Positions 29,859 through 44,705 of a DNA stretch of 64,000 nucleotides are shown piece by piece. Each line of letters begins with the position of its first letter. The stretch's first letter is position 1. The notes under the pieces were generated by a model. The model searched no databases and had not been told where the DNA came from. It saw only the letters and a list, made by a program, of their open reading frames with translations. The stretch covers positions 62,001 to 126,000 of the forward strand of contig JAHCAI010000008.1 of the NCBI GenBank assembly GCA_019634975.1, written 5' to 3'. The position numbers and the translations under genes were made by a program. The DNA is from Burkholderiales bacterium (GTDB lineage Bacteria; Pseudomonadota; Gammaproteobacteria; Burkholderiales; SG8-41).

Positions 29859-30617
29859 ATGACGCGCCCGCCGCTCCTGCTGTCACTGCTGCTGCCCGTA
29901 CTCGCCCAAGCGGCGACGCCCGCGGAACAGTACACCGCCTTCTGTGCCTCCTGCCATTTGCCGGGCATACACGGCGCCCCCAGGGTCGGTGACACGGCCG
30001 AATGGGCGCGCCGCCTGCGCGGCGGATTCAGCCTGGTTTACCGCAATGCGATCGAAGGCGTGCCGAACACCGCGATGCTGCCTCTCGGTGGCGCCAGCCT
30101 GTCGGCGGCCGAGGTGCGCGCAGTGACGGAATACATGATCGCCGCTTCCGCGTTACCCGCTGCCGCACTGAAGGAAGCCGCGCGCTACGACCGCCTCGGC
30201 ATCAGCGACCGCGATTTCATCCGCCAGGACGCAAATTACGACGGCAGGCTGTCGCGCGCGGAGCTGGCGCAGGATCCGGTGCTGGGGCGGAACCTGGGGC
30301 GCTTCGACATTGACCGCGACGGTGCGCTCAGCGAAAAGGAATACCTGCAGGCGGAAGCGGTGCTGGCCAGGGAACGCGCCGCAGTGCGCGTCGACGATGC
30401 CGCCATCAGGACCGCGGTGCGCAAGGCGCTGGCCGGTATCCGTGAAATCGACCCGCAATACGCAAACGTCGAAGTCAGAAACGGCGTCGTCGTGCTAAAA
30501 GGCATCGTCAGCCATGCCGTGGTGGCGCTGCGGGCCGGAGACGCGGTCAAGCGCATCCCCGGCATCCGGCGCATCGACAACCGGCTGGTCTCCGGCGACC
30601 AGATCGGCTGGGACTGA
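29859..30617 (+). CDS. Secreted cytochrome c / EF-hand / BON fusion protein
   Basis: 252 aa with a signal peptide (about 1-19, cleavage near AQA-A). Three parts follow. A c5-like cytochrome domain has haem site CASCH (29-33) and a probable axial Met in TAMLPLGG (near 73). A calcium-binding EF-hand pair has loops DANYDGRLSRAE (124-135) and DIDRDGALSEKE (150-161). A C-terminal BON domain (about 180-246: DAAIRTAVRKAL, VEVRNGVVVLKGIVSH, IPGIRRIDNRL) is of the type that binds membrane or peptidoglycan. It would act in the periplasm as an electron carrier tethered or tuned by calcium. This combination is not one I recognise. It stands alone, convergent with the malic enzyme gene. Confidence 0.85.
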   Translation: MTRPPLLLSLLLPVLAQAATPAEQYTAFCASCHLPGIHGAPRVGDTAEWARRLRGGFSLVYRNAIEGVPNTAMLPLGGASLSAAEVRAVTEYMIAASALPAAALKEAARYDRLGISDRDFIRQDANYDGRLSRAELAQDPVLGRNLGRFDIDRDGALSEKEYLQAEAVLARERAAVRVDDAAIRTAVRKALAGIREIDPQYANVEVRNGVVVLKGIVSHAVVALRAGDAVKRIPGIRRIDNRLVSGDQIGWD

Positions 30618-32435: not shown

Positions 32436-34946
32436 TCACGACCTCGGCGTCTGCAGCGGCAGGTCGAAATAAAAGGTCGATCCCTTGCCCGGTTCCGAAT
32501 CGAAACCGATGTTGCCGTTCATGCGCTCCACCAGCGCCTTGCAGATCGACAGCCCCAGTCCGGTTCCTCCCTTCTTGCGGGTGTCCGAATTGTCCGCGCG
32601 TTCAAAACGGCGGAAAATCGTTTCGCGGAAGCCGGCAGGTATGCCCGGCCCGTGGTCACGCACGGCCACCCGAACGGCACCGTCACGCTGCAAGGCGCTG
32701 ACCTCGACCTCAGCGTTCTCCGGCGAAAACTTGGCCGCGTTCGAGATCAGATTGGTCAGCACCTGCAGCAGCCGGTCATGATCGGCAGCCACCGTGAACT
32801 CAGGTCCCGGCAGCAGTTTCAGCCGCGCATGGTGCATGTCTGCATAAGGCCGGTTGATCCGGACCGCGTGCTCGAGAATCCCGCGCAGCTGCAGGGGTTT
32901 GAGATCCAGCGTCATCTGTCCGGAATCGATTTTCTCGAGATCAAGCACGTCATTGATCAGCGCCGACAACCGTTCGCCGTTCTGGTAGGCCATGTCGATG
33001 AAGTTCTCGGTGTGCGGATCAAGCCCCCTGGCTGACTCACGCACCAGGCCCAGCGCACCGATGATCGCCGTCAACGGAGTGCGCAGCTCGTGGCTGACGG
33101 TCGAAATGAACTCGTTTTTCAGCCGCTCCACTTCCTTCATCGCCGTGATGTCGGCGTTGGTGCCGGTCATGCGCAATGCCTGGCCCGATGCGTCGCGCTC
33201 CGAAACCTTGGCGCGGCTGTGGATCCAGCGCCACTCACCAAGTTTGTTCCGGACGCGGTGCTGGACCTCGTAGAAACGGGCGTTTCCCTTGAGCACCGGC
33301 AGCAGGCACTGCTGCAGCCGGGCCAGGTCGTCGGGGTGCACCATCTGCTGCAGTTCCTCAAACGTGGTCACTGTCTCGACGTTGTCGCCGCCCAGCATCA
33401 GCTGCCACTGCTCGCTGAGCCGAACCTCGCCACTCGGAATGTCCCAGTCGAACAGCGCGAGGTTCGAGCCCTCCAGCGCCATGCCGAGGCGTTCCCGGCT
33501 TTTCAGCAGCGCATCCGTGGCGTTCTTGCGCTCGGTGACATCCTCGACAATGCCGACATACCCGGCAAGGCCGTCATCCTCACGGATGACGCCCGCCAGC
33601 ACCGTCACCCAGATCACCGTTCCGTCTGCCCTCAGCAGGCGATAGCTGCCTGCAGTTTCGCTCCTGCGGTCGCGCAGCACGGCCTGCCAGCCCTCACGCA
33701 CGCGCTCACGGTCTTCGGGATGGACAGCCGCCAGCCAGCCCTCGCCCATGGCCGCAGCCGCAGACAGTCCCGACAGGCTTTCATAGCGCGGATTGACGTA
33801 GGTGTAGGCGCCGGCGACGTCGGTGCGAAAAATGCCCAGCGGCGAAGCATCGCTCATCGCCTGCCATTCCGCCTCCCGGCGCCGGACTTCGCGCGTCATC
33901 TGGCCTGCGATCCTGAGCGCGCGGCTGCGGGTATTCCAGAGCGACCACAGCATCGCGAGCAGCAGCAGGTGTATGGACACTCCGCCGAGCAGCACCAGCC
34001 GCGGCGTGTAGCGGTCCACTGATGCCTCGAAATCCGGTGTTGACGCCATGTGCAGGGTCCAGACCTGCCCCAGCACCGGCAACTCGGTCTTCCATACGAA
34101 ACGCGGTGAGTCACCGCCCTGCGTCCGGCTGGAAAACATCAGGGTTTCCGGTGCGACGACCCGGCCGTCATGCAGGGTCAAGGCCACGCTGCGCTCATTG
34201 CCGAGTACGCGTCGCATCAGATCGCCAATGCGAAAATGGGCAAACACGAAGCCTTCGACGGCCTGGCGGCGCTGCGCAGCCGTCTCCGGAGACAGGCTCA
34301 GGTGGCTGACGGGCACGTACATCGCGACGCCGGCCTGGACGTCTTCGTCGGTTTCCTGCAGCAGCCGGAGCCGGCCCGACATGGCCGGACCGCCGCTGAC
34401 GATCGCCCGCTCGAGGGCGGCGCGGCGCACCGGATCGGACAGCGCGTCGAAGCCTACCGCGCGCAGGTTGCGGCCGGAAAACGGCTCGATATAGGCGACC
34501 GGCACGTACTCGTCGCGCTCACCGGGAGGCTGTATCCGGTATCCCGAATATCCGGCCTCGCGGATGCGCGCGACGAAGGCATTAACACCGCCGGAACTCA
34601 CTCGCGGCGCGTAGCCGATCGCCTGGATGCCCGGGTAGTATGCATCCAGCTTGAGGCTGTCGACATAGCTGCGCCACTCGTCCCGGCCCACCGCCCGCGA
34701 AGCCGCGAACAGACCAGCGCCGCCGCGCAATACCTGTTCGTAATCCAGCAGACGGCCGGCTATGGTATTGCGGATCTGCTGCGCACGTGCCTCGAAATCG
34801 GCATGGGCCGCACTCGCGGCCTTGTCCACCTCGGCCTGCCAGGCCTGCATGACCAGCACCGCGGGAAGGACCACCGCCAGCGCGATGGCAATCGCGTTGT
34901 ACACCGGCTCCTTCAGGACGGACAGCCGGTTGCGCAAGCCGCTCAT
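32436..34946 (-). CDS. CHASE-PAS-PAS sensor histidine kinase
   Basis: 836 aa membrane kinase. Membrane helix 1 (about 15-36), periplasmic CHASE domain (about 75-265; GIQAIGYAPRV, RRAALERAIVSGGPAMSGRL), helix 2 (about 313-335), a PAS domain beginning at ASPLGIFRTD, a second PAS/PAC (LALFDWDIPSGEV), the HisKA box STVSHELRTPL (His near 616) and a HATPase with LTNLISNAAKFSP, DHGPGIP and GTGLGLSICKALVERMNG. No receiver domain, so phosphate must pass to a separate regulator; a single-domain response regulator opens the same gene set. ATG overlaps the stop of the glycosyltransferase gene. Ligand of the CHASE domain unknown. Confidence 0.93.
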   Translation of the reverse strand: MSGLRNRLSVLKEPVYNAIAIALAVVLPAVLVMQAWQAEVDKAASAAHADFEARAQQIRNTIAGRLLDYEQVLRGGAGLFAASRAVGRDEWRSYVDSLKLDAYYPGIQAIGYAPRVSSGGVNAFVARIREAGYSGYRIQPPGERDEYVPVAYIEPFSGRNLRAVGFDALSDPVRRAALERAIVSGGPAMSGRLRLLQETDEDVQAGVAMYVPVSHLSLSPETAAQRRQAVEGFVFAHFRIGDLMRRVLGNERSVALTLHDGRVVAPETLMFSSRTQGGDSPRFVWKTELPVLGQVWTLHMASTPDFEASVDRYTPRLVLLGGVSIHLLLLAMLWSLWNTRSRALRIAGQMTREVRRREAEWQAMSDASPLGIFRTDVAGAYTYVNPRYESLSGLSAAAAMGEGWLAAVHPEDRERVREGWQAVLRDRRSETAGSYRLLRADGTVIWVTVLAGVIREDDGLAGYVGIVEDVTERKNATDALLKSRERLGMALEGSNLALFDWDIPSGEVRLSEQWQLMLGGDNVETVTTFEELQQMVHPDDLARLQQCLLPVLKGNARFYEVQHRVRNKLGEWRWIHSRAKVSERDASGQALRMTGTNADITAMKEVERLKNEFISTVSHELRTPLTAIIGALGLVRESARGLDPHTENFIDMAYQNGERLSALINDVLDLEKIDSGQMTLDLKPLQLRGILEHAVRINRPYADMHHARLKLLPGPEFTVAADHDRLLQVLTNLISNAAKFSPENAEVEVSALQRDGAVRVAVRDHGPGIPAGFRETIFRRFERADNSDTRKKGGTGLGLSICKALVERMNGNIGFDSEPGKGSTFYFDLPLQTPRS

Positions 34947-36370
34947 TTCGCGCCCCCGCCACTGCCGGTCTGCCAGCTGGCACTGCGCGTCATCTCGCCC
35001 CAGCGCGCCTTCGAGCGGGCCATCCACAGCAGCAATCCCCACAGGCGCCACAGCGAATTGAGCTGCCGGTAGCCGAAATTCTCGATGACCACCATCAGCA
35101 GCAGCACGGCCACCTGGCCGGGCTTGGGGTAGATGTGGAAGGACATTTCCTCCAGCAGCAGGGAACTGACCGACAGCACCAGGCCGAAGCCGAAAGCGAC
35201 CAGCATGAAGGTCAGGAATGCCTCGCCGGACACCAGGCCGAGCACGAAAGCCGTGATCATGAAAGCATAGCCCGCGACTTCCAGCAGCGGTCCCAGCCAC
35301 TCGAAGACCACCATGAACGGAAAGGCCAGCCAGCCGGCCGCCCCGCCGCGGCGGTGGAACAGCAGGCCGATGTTCATCGTCAGGCTTTCGGACAGGCCAC
35401 GCTGCCAGCGCACGCGCTGGTTTTTCAGCACGCGCAGCGACTCCGGCGCCTCGGTCCAGCAGATCGGGTCCGGCACGAACACGATGCGATAGGGAATGCG
35501 CCGGGTCCGGTGCAGGCGATGCAGGCGCACCACGAGTTCCATGTCCTCGCCGACGGTATCCCGCCGGTAGCCGCCGGCGGCAACGACCACGTCCTTGCGG
35601 AACAGGCCGAAAGCCCCGGAAATGATCAGCACCGCGTTGAGCGGCGACCAGCCCATGCGCCCGAACAGGAAGGCGCGCAGGTACTCCACGATCTGCAGCA
35701 GGGCCAGCGGGTTGCGCGGCAGGCCCACGCTGGCAAGGAAGCCGTTGTCGACCCTGCAGCCGTTGGCGATGCGCACGGTGCCGCCCGAAGCAATGGTCCG
35801 CGGATCCTCGAGGAAGGGCTCCACCACCCGCTTCAGGCTGTCGCGCTCGAGCACGGAATCCGCATCCACGCCGCAGAACAGCGGATAGCGCGAAGCATTG
35901 ATGCCCGCGTTCAGCGCATCGGCCTTGCCGCCGTTTTCCTTGTCGATCACGCGCAGAGAGGGATGCGTGGCCGAGCGGTATATGCCGCGCAACGGCTGTG
36001 CCGGCAGCCTCTGCCAGTAGGCCTCGGGAAACGGCAGCAGCGCGAATTCGCGGCGCAGCGCTTCCATCGTCCCGTCCCGCGAGCCGTCGTTGATGACGAT
36101 CACCTCGTAGTCGGGATAGTTGAGCTGCAGCATGGAGCGAACGGATCCCGCGATCGTGGCTTCCTCGTTGTAGGCGGGCACCAGCACCGACACCGGGGGT
36201 TCAAGTCCGCTGATGCCGCGCGGCAGGTCGTCAAGGCTGTGCGATTCGATGTAGCGCTTCAGGCTCCCCAGAGACAGCAGGTTGAGCATCAGGTAGCCAC
36301 TGTTGATGCCGACGAAATACAGCATGAAAAACCACTGCAGCCCGACAGCCCAGTCGAATCCCGCGCTCAT
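34943..36370 (-). CDS. Membrane glycosyltransferase family 2 (polysaccharide synthase-like)
   Basis: 475 aa processive-type GT2. N-terminal helix (about 10-32), cytosolic catalytic domain with VLVPAYNEEATI, INDGSRDGT (94-101), CGVDADSVL (DXD at 169-171), TVGEDMELVVRLHR (ED, 275-276) and the product-channel motif QRVRWQRG (318-325), then three or four C-terminal helices. This is the layout of PgaC, hyaluronan and cellulose synthases. It would polymerise a sugar from a nucleotide donor and push it through the inner membrane. Start and stop overlap both neighbours by four bases. Polymer identity unknown. Confidence 0.92.
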   Translation of the reverse strand: MSAGFDWAVGLQWFFMLYFVGINSGYLMLNLLSLGSLKRYIESHSLDDLPRGISGLEPPVSVLVPAYNEEATIAGSVRSMLQLNYPDYEVIVINDGSRDGTMEALRREFALLPFPEAYWQRLPAQPLRGIYRSATHPSLRVIDKENGGKADALNAGINASRYPLFCGVDADSVLERDSLKRVVEPFLEDPRTIASGGTVRIANGCRVDNGFLASVGLPRNPLALLQIVEYLRAFLFGRMGWSPLNAVLIISGAFGLFRKDVVVAAGGYRRDTVGEDMELVVRLHRLHRTRRIPYRIVFVPDPICWTEAPESLRVLKNQRVRWQRGLSESLTMNIGLLFHRRGGAAGWLAFPFMVVFEWLGPLLEVAGYAFMITAFVLGLVSGEAFLTFMLVAFGFGLVLSVSSLLLEEMSFHIYPKPGQVAVLLLMVVIENFGYRQLNSLWRLWGLLLWMARSKARWGEMTRSASWQTGSGGGAK

Positions 36371-37467
36371 CGGCTGCGTGCCTCGGCCATGACCTGGTCC
36401 AGCATGTCAGCCGCATAGCGGTCGTCCAGCGTGGACCGGATTCTGTCGATGTCACCGGGCGCGGTGGCCGGCAGCGCAACAAGGGCACGTGCCGCGTGGT
36501 ACCGCACCCACCAGTGCGCATCCTTCAGCATGCCGACCAGCAACTGGCGGTCGCCCGCCTCGCCGATCCGCGAAAGCAGCCTTGCGGCCGCGACACGCAC
36601 CACCCAGGATTCATGCGCGGCGGCGGATCGCGCGAGGCCGAGCTCGCGGGGATCGCCCAGCAGGCGCAGCCCCGCCGCCTTGACCTCGGGATCATCCGAT
36701 TCGCGCACGACGCGCGCCGCGGCTTCTCCGGCACCTGCCGTGTGTGCCACTTCCATCATGCGCAGCAGGCGCACCGTCTGCCGCGGATTTCCGGCGGCTT
36801 TCAGTGCCGCCACCAGGGGGAGCGTCACCCGGTCAGGCCCCGCCTCCTTCAGCATCGCAACCAGCCGCGCCAGCGGCCAGTCCTCCCGCGCGGCCATGAC
36901 CATCACCAGCCAGGCCAGCGTGGCCTCGGCGTCAATATCGAGAAGGGCGCGCGCCGCCGCCAGGGACAGCAGCGGCGAGGGATGCGCAACCAGCGCGCGC
37001 AGCTCCTGCCAGCGCTCGCGGTCTCCGAGGTGGCCCAGCGTGATGATGGCAATCATGCGCTCGCGCAGGTCGCTGCTCTGCAGCATGTTCCGGGCCACTT
37101 CGTCGATGCCCATTCTCCGCGCCAGCGTCTCCAGGTTGCCGCGCGCGCTGCCCTCAAGGGATTCATGGTGATGATTCCACAGCTTCATGAAGTGATAGCG
37201 CATCGAACGGGGGACGACCGGCAGCGCCTGCGGAACATCGAACACGCACTCTGCAAGAAGGGGGCGCCATTGCGCGGCGTAGCGGTGCTCGCGCCGGGTC
37301 CGCAAAACCAGGCGCATGCGCAGCAGGAATACGGCGACCAGCATCAGCAGCGAAAAGGCGATGATGCCGAGGCCCGCCTGGAACACCACTGCGAGCAGGG
37401 GATCATGCGGCAGCCAGGACACGACAGCGTGTTCCGGCGGCGGCGAAAACCCGGTATCGAGACGCAA
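36367..37467 (-). CDS. HEAT-repeat membrane protein
   Basis: 366 aa. One membrane helix near the N-terminus (about 24-48), followed by a long alpha-helical solenoid of about eight HEAT-like repeats (for example MIAIITLGHLGDRERWQELR, VRVAAARLLSRIGEAGDRQL and VRYHAARALVALPATAPGDI). HEAT repeats bind proteins, so it probably serves as a scaffold for the glycosyltransferase that follows it, with which it overlaps by four bases. Start is TTG, seven bases after the barrel gene, with a poor Shine-Dalgarno. No catalytic motif seen. Confidence 0.88.
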   Translation of the reverse strand: MRLDTGFSPPPEHAVVSWLPHDPLLAVVFQAGLGIIAFSLLMLVAVFLLRMRLVLRTRREHRYAAQWRPLLAECVFDVPQALPVVPRSMRYHFMKLWNHHHESLEGSARGNLETLARRMGIDEVARNMLQSSDLRERMIAIITLGHLGDRERWQELRALVAHPSPLLSLAAARALLDIDAEATLAWLVMVMAAREDWPLARLVAMLKEAGPDRVTLPLVAALKAAGNPRQTVRLLRMMEVAHTAGAGEAAARVVRESDDPEVKAAGLRLLGDPRELGLARSAAAHESWVVRVAAARLLSRIGEAGDRQLLVGMLKDAHWWVRYHAARALVALPATAPGDIDRIRSTLDDRYAADMLDQVMAEARSR

Positions 37468-37474
37468 GACGCGC

Positions 37475-38338
37475 CTAGAAACTGTGGCGGATGCCCAGCC
37501 GCAGACCCTGGCGGCGGTAGAGGCTGCCCTGCTCGTGGTTCACCAGGTCGTAGGTCAGCGCCCAGGCCGGTGTCAGCCAGTGCTGGCCGCTGAGCGTCCA
37601 GTTGCGCACGTCGCTGGACAACAGCCCGCGCGGCGGGCCGACGTTCTCGACCTCGCGGCCATCGCTGAAGGAAATGCCGACGGAGCTGCGGTCTGCGTAG
37701 TAGTAGCTGAGCTGGACCCGGTGGCTGGCACCCGAAGAGCCCCCCTCGGGCCTGCCGGAATACAGGGTGTAGGCACCGCGGAAATTGCCCCAGTAGCGCT
37801 CCGCCAGCAACGACACGACATTGCTGGCGGACAGCGTGTACTCGTTATGCCGCAGACCGACACCGACACCCCAGCCGCCGGGCAGGCTTTTTTGCAGCTG
37901 GCCATAAATCGAATGCTTGGCCAGCACCTCGTGCGTGGGACTCAGGCTGCCCTCGACCTGCGCCGTCCAGCTGGCGCCGAGCGGGTAATACAGCCCCGCA
38001 TGGACCTCGCTGTCGTCGAGGCCGAAGCGCCGGGTCTCGCGCAGGCCGCCGTACAGCACCCGGCGTTCGCCGAAACGGTGTGAGCCCAGAAGGTAGGTGC
38101 TGGTCCAGTCCGGCAGGCTGTTGCTCAGATTCTCCCGGCTGTAGCCGGCTTCAACTTCGGTGCGGGCAGGCTTGAGTCCGATCGCGCCGCCAGCCGCCTT
38201 CAGCCCGCTACCGGCCGGCTCGGGCTGCGCCTGCAAGGAAAAGGAACACCAGCCCAGGACTGCCGCCAAGGCACAGGAGGCCGCTCTCGCCCCCGGTGAC
38301 GGCCGGGACAGGTGGTTCGACGGATGGGAATAAGTCAT
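37475..38338 (-). CDS. YaiO-family outer-membrane beta-barrel protein
   Basis: 287 aa with a signal-like N-terminus (hydrophobic ASCALAAVLGWCSFSLQA near 20-37). The rest is alternating short strands rich in Tyr, Arg and Gly, ending in LRLGIRHSF, a C-terminal Phe typical of barrels inserted by BamA. Segments such as VEAGYSRENLSNSLPDW and GGLRETRRFGLDDSEVHAGL resemble YaiO. It is a likely pore or docking protein for the product of the adjacent glycosyltransferase. ATG overlaps the response regulator stop (ATGA). Confidence 0.82.
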   Translation of the reverse strand: MTYSHPSNHLSRPSPGARAASCALAAVLGWCSFSLQAQPEPAGSGLKAAGGAIGLKPARTEVEAGYSRENLSNSLPDWTSTYLLGSHRFGERRVLYGGLRETRRFGLDDSEVHAGLYYPLGASWTAQVEGSLSPTHEVLAKHSIYGQLQKSLPGGWGVGVGLRHNEYTLSASNVVSLLAERYWGNFRGAYTLYSGRPEGGSSGASHRVQLSYYYADRSSVGISFSDGREVENVGPPRGLLSSDVRNWTLSGQHWLTPAWALTYDLVNHEQGSLYRRQGLRLGIRHSF

Positions 38339-38733
38339 TTCTTTCGTCCCTTGACCAGGCGCTTGATGCGGGCACGCAGTTCCTCGGGCTTGAACGGCTT
38401 GACGAGGTAATCGTCAGCGCCGCTGTCCAGCGCCCGCACGATGTCCTTCTCCTGCGACTTGGCGGTCAGCATCAGCACCGGCACACCACGCCAGGCTTCC
38501 TGCGCGCGGATCGCGCCCAGCAGCTGGTAACCGTCGGCATGCGGCAGCATCACGTCAAGCATGGTCAGTGCCGGCGGCGCAATGCGGCCTATCAGGTCCA
38601 TCGCTGCACGCCCGTCGTTGGCCAGTTCGACCCGATAGCCCTCGCGCTCGAGTATGAATCGCAGCAGATAGGCAATCTGATCATCATCCTCGACCACCAG
38701 CGCGACATCCGGGAGCGGATTACCCGTATCCAT
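38335..38733 (-). CDS. Single-domain response regulator (CheY-like)
   Basis: 132 aa receiver domain only. Acidic pocket VVEDDDQ (13-19), phosphoacceptor Asp60 in LTMLDVMLPHADGY, signalling Thr in VLMLTAKS and Lys in DYLVKPFKPEEL. With no output domain it must act by protein contact, perhaps with the HEAT-repeat scaffold or glycosyltransferase. First gene of the five-gene coupled set; the kinase is the last. No other regulator of that set is visible. Confidence 0.92.
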   Translation of the reverse strand: MDTGNPLPDVALVVEDDDQIAYLLRFILEREGYRVELANDGRAAMDLIGRIAPPALTMLDVMLPHADGYQLLGAIRAQEAWRGVPVLMLTAKSQEKDIVRALDSGADDYLVKPFKPEELRARIKRLVKGRKK

Positions 38734-38890
38734 TCACTGTTTTCCGGCCATATTCACCGGGCTTTTTGACAACATGAACCGGCATTTTACCGAATGCCCG
38801 CGCAGCCCCGGTACAGACTTGCCTCAGGAATCTTGAGCTCCGATTCAGTCCGACCGGGACCCAAGCAGTGCCGGCTGTCACACGAAAATA

Positions 38891-38923
38891 TTTAAGTTAT
38901 TGTTTTTAAACAGTTTTTTTAAA
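38891..38923 (+). repeat. AT-rich dispersed motif, copy 2
   Basis: Contains TAAGTTATTGTTTTTAAA, identical over 18 bases to copy 1 at 61.6 kb, followed by CAGTTTTTTTAAAG. It lies in the 230-bp gap upstream of the response regulator set and downstream of the TauD gene. The rest of this gap shows no gene or clear promoter. Confidence 0.75.
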
Positions 38924-38963
38924 GTGGTCTACCCATCACCGCCGATACCGGGTGCCCCCACGC

Positions 38964-43722: not shown

Positions 43723-44625
43723 TCAGCGTTTGCGTCGCACCACCGTAGCACCATCGCCTGGGGCTGCCCGACGGTACCAGTCGAGGATCCGGTCACCGGT
43801 CCAGAACACCACGCCCCTCTCGTCGCGCAAGCGGCGGAACACGTTCTCGAAATACTTGATCCGGTGCGGCACCCCGGAGATGTAGGGATGCACGGCAATG
43901 GCCATCACCTTGACCCGCTTCGCGCCCTCCTCGTACAGCCGCTCGAACTGGTCCATGCAGCGCGACTCGAACTCCGCAGCCGCGTGATGCTGCACCATCA
44001 TCATCGCGATGTCGTTGAGCTCCACTGAGTATGGCATCGCCACCACCTTGCCGTGCCGGGTCTGGATGTCGCAGGGTTCGTCATCGACCACCCAGTCGGC
44101 GATGTACCGGATGCCGGCCTCGGCCAGATAGTCCGGCGTGAACAGGGTTTCGGTCAGCCCCGGCGCGAGCCAGCCCACCGGCGCCTTGCCGGTGAACGAT
44201 TTGATCTGCTTCACGGTGCGCTTGATCATCGCGCGCTGGTCGCGCTCGACATGGGTCGGCTGCTGGTCCCAGGAATGGCCGACAAACTCCCAGCCCGATT
44301 TCAGCGATTCCTCGGCAATGCGTGCATAGTCGACGCAGATGCGGCCGTTGGTGAACAGCGAGGCCTTGATGTCCAGTTCGTCCAGTGCCTGCTTGATACG
44401 CCAGAACCCGACACGGTTGCCGTATTCATGCCAGGCCCAGTGGGCAAAGTCCGGCAGCCGGGTGACATGCGTCGGCGGCGGCAGCACCTGCCGCGGCATC
44501 GGGCGGCCGATGTCCCAGACCTCGACGTTGACCACCGGCCACACGATCAGGCGCACGCCGGGCGGCGGTTTCAGCGGCGGGCGGTCAATGATGGGCACGT
44601 AGGGCAGACGCTTCGACGGGATCAT
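43723..44625 (-). CDS. Polysaccharide deacetylase / PuuE-like family protein
   Basis: 300 aa NodB-fold protein. SLFTNGRICVDY and GWEFVGHSWDQQPTH (metal-binding histidines), VGWLAPGLTETLFTPDYLAEAG and YIADWVVDDEPC match the allantoinase-PuuE/xylanase-type branch of the deacetylase family. This branch often acts on small amides rather than on polymers, so the substrate is unclear. Start at MIPSKR six bases after GGAG; a start 36 bases upstream is possible. No secretion signal, so probably cytoplasmic. It lies downstream of gntR on the same strand. Confidence 0.83.
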   Translation of the reverse strand: MIPSKRLPYVPIIDRPPLKPPPGVRLIVWPVVNVEVWDIGRPMPRQVLPPPTHVTRLPDFAHWAWHEYGNRVGFWRIKQALDELDIKASLFTNGRICVDYARIAEESLKSGWEFVGHSWDQQPTHVERDQRAMIKRTVKQIKSFTGKAPVGWLAPGLTETLFTPDYLAEAGIRYIADWVVDDEPCDIQTRHGKVVAMPYSVELNDIAMMMVQHHAAAEFESRCMDQFERLYEEGAKRVKVMAIAVHPYISGVPHRIKYFENVFRRLRDERGVVFWTGDRILDWYRRAAPGDGATVVRRKR

Positions 44626-44705
44626 GCGGTGCTCCGGGAATAATGTGGGCAACCTTTGCATTATATCGGCGGCCCCGCGTCTGAACCTCAGATCACACTG
44701 ATGGA

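Follow-up and report, generated by a model that had tools for sequence, protein, structure and literature searches.

How is a polysaccharide synthase controlled when its operon carries a two-component input of its own and encodes no recognisable DNA-binding or cyclic di-GMP (c-di-GMP) domain? This question is raised by five consecutive minus-strand open reading frames in the window analysed here, a 64,000-nt stretch of a Burkholderiales bacterium genome (contig JAHCAI010000008.1, positions 62,001 to 126,000). They encode a receiver-only response regulator (38335..38733, 132 aa, ATG start; Pfam Response_reg 1.4e-28), a YaiO-family outer-membrane beta-barrel (37475..38338, 287 aa, ATG start; Pfam YaiO 2.9e-20), a HEAT-repeat protein (36367..37467, 366 aa, TTG start; Pfam HEAT_2 1.7e-20), a membrane family 2 glycosyltransferase (GT2; 34943..36370, 475 aa, ATG start; Pfam Glycos_transf_2 5.7e-25), and a membrane histidine kinase of CHASE-PAS-PAS-HisKA-HATPase_c architecture (32436..34946, 836 aa, ATG start; Pfam CHASE 8e-59, HisKA 3e-20, HATPase_c 9.5e-31). 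Our answer, given with moderate confidence, is that this is a synthase-dependent polysaccharide operon regulated at the protein level by a two-component system: once phosphorylated, the receiver would bind the HEAT protein and gate the synthase. The initial annotation had described the reading frames and their junctions correctly: 4-base ATGA overlaps join receiver to YaiO, HEAT to GT2 and GT2 to kinase, and a 7-base gap separates YaiO from HEAT. It had drawn the cassette as 34943-38733, a span that holds four of the genes and leaves outside the kinase that its own text names. Its statement that DNA-binding and c-di-GMP domains are absent holds for the five proteins, in which no GGDEF, EAL, PilZ, MshEN or DNA-binding domain was found by Pfam at E<=0.01.

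The central genes of this operon belong together far beyond the window. We collected 172 GT2 loci with their flanks (three genomes are represented twice), and a HEAT gene is present in 161 of them, lying immediately upstream of GT2 in 145, fused to it in four and elsewhere in the locus in 12, with none seen in 11. The four fusion loci correspond to two genomes, each counted twice. The HEAT-to-GT2 junction is a 4-base overlap in 70/146 cases, compared with 56/411 (14%) of background same-strand pairs from the same loci; given that background, such overlaps suggest translational coupling only, and the fixed product ratio previously read into them was dropped. Of the 151 loci with an untruncated upstream side, 117 have a receiver gene adjoining the HEAT-GT2 pair (106 with it at most two genes upstream of HEAT, 11 with it immediately after GT2), against a background rate of 9 receivers in 236 genes distant from the cassette. 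The order receiver-YaiO-HEAT-GT2 was found again in many Pseudomonadota, and a congeneric genome (L186) holds all five genes in identical order, with a kinase of identical domain make-up; a third genome of the genus has no GT2. The recurrence over families and phyla demonstrates that the gene order is not due to chance, and the wide conservation agrees with the original proposal of a glycan synthesis and export operon with its own two-component input.

The original proposal would have been refuted had the genes not occurred together in other genomes, and it survived this check; not all five families are equally constant. YaiO is missing from Gram-positives, which encode a large protein instead (weakly GH72-like in one case), and from haloarchaeal plasmids (Salinirubellus, Haloarcula), where annotations by others give response regulator-HEAT-GT2 with no barrel or other member of the set. 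The core is therefore receiver-HEAT-GT2, and YaiO is a diderm addition to it, confined to cells that possess an outer membrane. Nor is the kinase part of the core, being interchangeable: besides the CHASE type of the window, cassettes carry CHASE3 hybrids, dCache, GAF, MASE1 and 5TMR types, placed before, after or opposite the other genes. The window kinase is the putative cognate partner of the receiver, to judge by their operonic coupling and by the same pair in the congener. The haloarchaeal loci L403 and L404 keep the three-gene core and the phospho-Asp of the receiver, which suggests gene transfer between domains. In genome surveys with a GT2 profile (E<=1e-70), matches were obtained in 14/349 Pseudomonadota genomes, 9/120 genomes of the window's order, 19/196 genomes in the class of a clostridial locus, 34/149 in the phylum of a locus titled Acidobacteria (L037), 40/148 in that of a Bacteroidota locus (L092) and 28/148 in that of a Nitrospira locus (L026). 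The GT2 is thus patchy in proteobacteria and common in certain other phyla. Viral contigs yielded 53 GT2 relatives; of the nearest two (40% and 38%), which were scored for cassette genes, one has a weak HEAT match. Several loci depart from the common layout. One Gemmatimonadetes genome (G598) carries two cassettes, L224 and L351, each with a long multi-receiver protein preceding HEAT-GT2. In Clostridia and on a Planococcus plasmid (L215-L219, L221, L409), HEAT-GT2 occurs without an adjoining receiver gene, and the genes tested or annotated there include VTC, DUF4956, CotH and the large protein with a weak GH72-like match.

What, then, does the receiver do? The window protein has the residues of a phosphorylatable receiver, namely an acidic pocket (E15-D16-D17), a phospho-Asp (D60), T90 and K112, and this set is conserved across cassettes. 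It ends at residue 132 and has no C-terminal winged-helix DNA-binding domain of the kind found in OmpR/PhoB factors. PhoB-like receivers are its best family matches. Among 115 cassettes, 80 have a stand-alone receiver; the other 35 have a longer protein, and in 33 of these the receiver forms the very C-terminus, preceded by Hpt, REC or GGDEF parts. Hence no output domain follows it in 113/115. On a tree of 294 receivers (115 from cassettes, 179 others; 128 columns), in which few deep forks are resolved, cassette receivers cluster, with 22 label changes compared with 91 when labels are shuffled. Nearest to the window receiver are rows from cassettes of Lysobacter, Massilia and other taxa, rather than any of the 29 further receivers that its own genome encodes.

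The phosphorylation site itself is informative. It is Asp in 95 cassette receivers, Glu in 18 and Asn in two, and Glu is enriched relative to other receivers (18/115 versus 3/179, Fisher 8e-6), having arisen through at least seven changes from Asp on the receiver tree. None of the 18 Glu cassettes has a scored kinase within five genes, compared with 35 of 94 Asp cassettes (p 7e-4). An Asp-to-Glu change can mimic phosphorylation in some receivers and cannot pass phosphate on, so the Asp/Glu pattern fits an output receiver rather than a relay. In a group of Paenibacillus and Neobacillus loci (L074, L080, L082, L085-L087, L093, L094, L097), the receiver lies after GT2, forms the C-terminal part of a protein some 270 aa long and has Glu at the phospho-Asp position; in most of them the next gene belongs to a cluster whose tested member is a UDP-glucose dehydrogenase, followed by a protein of about 305 aa without a clear family.

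Split loci indicate HEAT as the receiver's partner. Where GT2 is separated by other genes, as in Nitrospira, the receiver adjoins HEAT in 7 of 12 loci and GT2 in none of the 12, thus keeping to HEAT. The Nitrospira loci L020, L022 and L333-L341 have opposite-strand genes between HEAT and GT2, including one for a polysaccharide deacetylase, as tested in L022, and one for a protein labelled YaiO/TPR, and a receiver adjoins HEAT in some of them and is missing from others. The earlier suggestion that the receiver acts by direct contact therefore gains from its terminal position, its fidelity to HEAT and the confinement of Glu to cassettes without a scored kinase nearby, with HEAT as the putative binding partner. 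On balance, we regard action through contact with HEAT-GT2 as fairly probable.

An AlphaFold2 model of the window HEAT protein (mean predicted local distance difference test score, pLDDT, 94.9) shows a helix at residues 23-73 and then an alpha-solenoid, predicting a single N-terminal membrane helix followed by a cytosolic solenoid. In the PDB, the model matches alphaRep binders and the PP2A scaffold, folds that are used for protein binding. The natural HEAT-GT2 fusions of two genomes offered a view of the pair. A fusion of 947 aa was modelled (pLDDT 85, predicted template modelling score 0.80) with an alignment that included rows built from adjacent HEAT and GT2 genes, the stop codon being read through in these rows only. 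In several alignments of this model with BcsA, the aligned range begins at residue 1 of the HEAT helix, which hints, at the level of this model, that the helix may sit in the membrane bundle of the synthase. We consider it likely that HEAT is a subunit of the GT2 enzyme.

The GT2 carries the motifs D95, D169/D171, E275-D276 and QRVRW (318-322), and QxxRW and all the acidic motifs are invariant among 36 diverse relatives. In the fusion model, the GT2 part aligns by VIA-align with hyaluronan synthase at a Z of about 27 and with BcsA at about 25, and its fold also matches chitin synthases; in a DALI-like comparison a mannosyltransferase and hyaluronan synthase tie as the top match to this fused relative. 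By its motifs and the fold of this fused relative, the window GT2 is very probably a polysaccharide synthase. Two specific identities were rejected: it scores 147.3 bits against the PgaC_IcaA NCBIfam model, short of the equivalog cut-off of 422.3 that would make it a poly-N-acetylglucosamine (PNAG) synthase, and 49.9 bits against the CelA model (cut-off 699.1), without PilZ, which dismisses a cellulose synthase of the CelA/BcsA type.

The barrel belongs to the YaiO family, matching TIGR04390 at 4.7e-39 over residues 60-287, the whole barrel (134.7 bits, cut-off 32), and PF19413 with 73.4 bits (cut-off 23.9). It is likely the export pore. The window protein has no TPR part; in several relatives, the barrel is preceded by an N-terminal stretch that looks like TPR. 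What polymer would be exported? The window operon has no gene for a polymer-modifying enzyme, and deacetylase or sulfatase-type genes occur in some relatives only. The clues from these relatives conflict: a polysaccharide deacetylase in Nitrospira and Elusimicrobia, a UDP-glucose dehydrogenase in Paenibacillus, a sulfatase-type domain fused to GT2 in Bacteroidota or adjoining it in Stenotrophomonas, and VTC-DUF4956-CotH in Clostridia and Planococcus. The polymer probably differs from lineage to lineage. The Bacteroidota loci L369 (6752-10186), L370 and L371 carry the sulfatase-superfamily domain at the C-terminus of the cassette GT2 (Pfam 2.4e-32 in L369), where it is possibly a polymer-modifying transferase. 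The window also contains a polysaccharide-deacetylase family gene at 43723-44661 (Pfam 1.4e-9), 5 kb from the operon; judged by its surroundings, it is more likely metabolic than part of the operon's system.

As for the setting of the operon, 230 bases separate it from the upstream neighbour, a TauD-family gene, and 107 bases lie between the kinase and the downstream malic-enzyme gene; because these gaps flank the set, the five genes look like one operon. The partly AT-rich intergenic region 5' of it (38734..38963, minus strand) is a probable promoter region, in which a scan found no sigma-70 consensus or promoter-like site. Elsewhere in the window, 29859-30617 encodes a small BON-domain protein with an apparent N-terminal haem-binding motif (CASCH) and EF-hand-like motifs.

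Assembled into a mechanism, these elements would work as follows. The CHASE kinase would sense an external ligand and phosphorylate D60 of the stand-alone receiver, which would then dock on the HEAT solenoid and switch the synthase, the sign of the effect being conjectural; the docked receiver would thereby play the role that c-di-GMP has in cellulose and PNAG systems. HEAT would serve as an accessory subunit, with its N-terminal helix in the membrane beside GT2 and its solenoid in the cytosol beside the catalytic domain. At the inner membrane, GT2 would build a chain from a nucleotide sugar and thread it outward, and the polymer would leave through YaiO at the outer membrane.

Several observations weigh against this scheme. 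About 23% of the assessable HEAT-GT2 pairs have no adjoining receiver, and such a pair therefore either needs none or relies on one encoded far away. The loci scanned contained no receiver-HEAT fusion. The association of Glu with the lack of a scored kinase nearby does not amount to 18 independent cases, since Glu receivers come mostly from Paenibacillus and its relatives, and one Glu cassette (L359) has a weak kinase-like neighbour at 32 bits, under the cut used. Finally, the positions that distinguish cassette receivers (E95, I98, D108, E118, R122) lie on the alpha4-beta5-alpha5 face; this conserved face does not prove HEAT binding, because it is also the OmpR/PhoB dimer signature. That signature, together with the PhoB-like best matches and the pairs lacking a receiver, would suit a receiver that acts on transcription or another process through a partner outside the operon, with HEAT as a constitutive assembly factor of GT2. 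A transcription partner would not predict the HEAT-GT2 association across bacteria and haloarchaea, and in 113 of 115 cassettes the receiver is not followed by any DNA-binding domain (a helix-turn-helix stands at the N-terminus of one multidomain version), making this improbable. We also give little credence to the receiver as a phosphorelay intermediate or phosphate sink, with phosphate from the CHASE kinase passed to or drained from a regulator elsewhere and the place in a glycan operon incidental. Receiver-only proteins often act as relays, and Hpt genes and second receivers adjoin several alphaproteobacterial cassettes; yet a relay is impossible with Glu in place of Asp, as in 18 cassette receivers, and the receiver keeps to HEAT in split loci and is present in cassettes without a nearby kinase.

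Slightly less remote, though still unlikely, is that the synthase obeys c-di-GMP (or a different nucleotide) bound at a site missed by Pfam, with the receiver only tuning it, as may be the case in lineages where it comes last in an Hpt-REC-GGDEF-REC protein. The second messenger is indeed not foreign to the family, and its reported absence is valid for the window operon only: GGDEF occurs in 15 of 34 multidomain cassette receivers, and an EAL protein directly follows GT2 in one clostridial locus. Moreover, S. meliloti BgsA is reported to bind c-di-GMP although it has no PilZ domain (PMC10374906). The five window proteins, however, lack the four c-di-GMP-related domains named above; the GGDEF versions carry theirs as an extra upstream part, the shared element being the C-terminal receiver, and haloarchaeal loci have the receiver alone. 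A similarly small chance attaches to the GT2 not making a polymer at all and adding single sugars to a lipid or protein, with the barrel in another role. The mannosyltransferase match of the fused relative speaks for it; the invariant QxxRW and acidic motifs and the fold matches to hyaluronan, cellulose and chitin synthases speak against it, as do the relatives' neighbours (TPR-barrels, polysaccharide deacetylase, sulfatase-type modifiers, UDP-glucose dehydrogenase and a weak GH72-like match). We thus retain a synthase gated by the phospho-receiver through HEAT as the favoured reading.

How does such an operon relate to known systems? Stand-alone receivers of the CheY, Spo0F and DivK type have no output domain and act by protein contact or relay; the partner of the window receiver would differ in being a membrane polysaccharide synthase complex. 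Synthase-dependent exopolysaccharide systems are defined by a processive GT2, a c-di-GMP-binding domain or co-polymerase, a TPR-coupled outer-membrane pore and periplasmic modifying enzymes (PMC7112194). The operon has an outer-membrane barrel and a GT2 that is, by its motifs and the hyaluronan-synthase-like fold of the fused relative, a putative processive inner-membrane synthase; a recognisable c-di-GMP co-polymerase, a barrel TPR and a modifying enzyme are missing. The operon would work like these systems, and its membership hinges on whether control by c-di-GMP is regarded as a defining trait. With the E. coli PNAG operon (pgaABCD) it shares an outer-membrane export protein and a processive GT2, 27% identical to PgaC over 350 aa (E 6e-34), but it has no PgaB- or PgaD-like gene, and receiver-HEAT, the proposed control, stands in place of PgaD and c-di-GMP. 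The synthase fold class and the D,D,D,QxxRW motifs are common to BcsA, while the PilZ, BcsB and BcsC of bacterial cellulose synthase have no counterpart. The E. coli yaiS-yaiP-yaiX-yaiO locus also clusters a GT2 with a YaiO-family barrel; it lacks HEAT, receiver and kinase, its GT2 is only weakly similar (27%, E 7e-10), and the barrels resemble each other at profile level only. NfrB, the NGR glycan synthase of the phage N4 receptor, is another GT2 under local signalling control, exerted in its case by c-di-GMP, and no HEAT protein or response regulator is mentioned for it (PMC8669469). The mixed-linkage glucan synthase of R. ilealis was considered as a match and set aside; the passages found on it mention no HEAT or receiver partner.

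No description of the receiver/YaiO/HEAT/GT2 set was found in the open literature searched, a scope that leaves out most subscription papers and preprints, and receiver-HEAT-GT2 as a directly two-component-switched synthase appears not to have been described before. We give even chances to the broader view that it represents an ancient, undescribed synthase class across many bacterial phyla and haloarchaea, whose allosteric input would be a phospho-receiver, or a built-in Glu phosphomimic, docking on HEAT. Cellulose, PNAG, Pel and alginate, the synthase-dependent systems commonly listed, centre on c-di-GMP. If our reading is true, two-component signalling would act directly on a widespread synthase, which would solve the same problem in a second way and offer a rare example of a receiver with a membrane enzyme as its immediate output. 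The natural Asp/Glu variants and HEAT-GT2 fusions make this proposal directly testable. It would also mean that an unnamed matrix polymer is made in roughly one fifth to one quarter of the sampled genomes of Bacteroidota, Acidobacteria and Nitrospirota.

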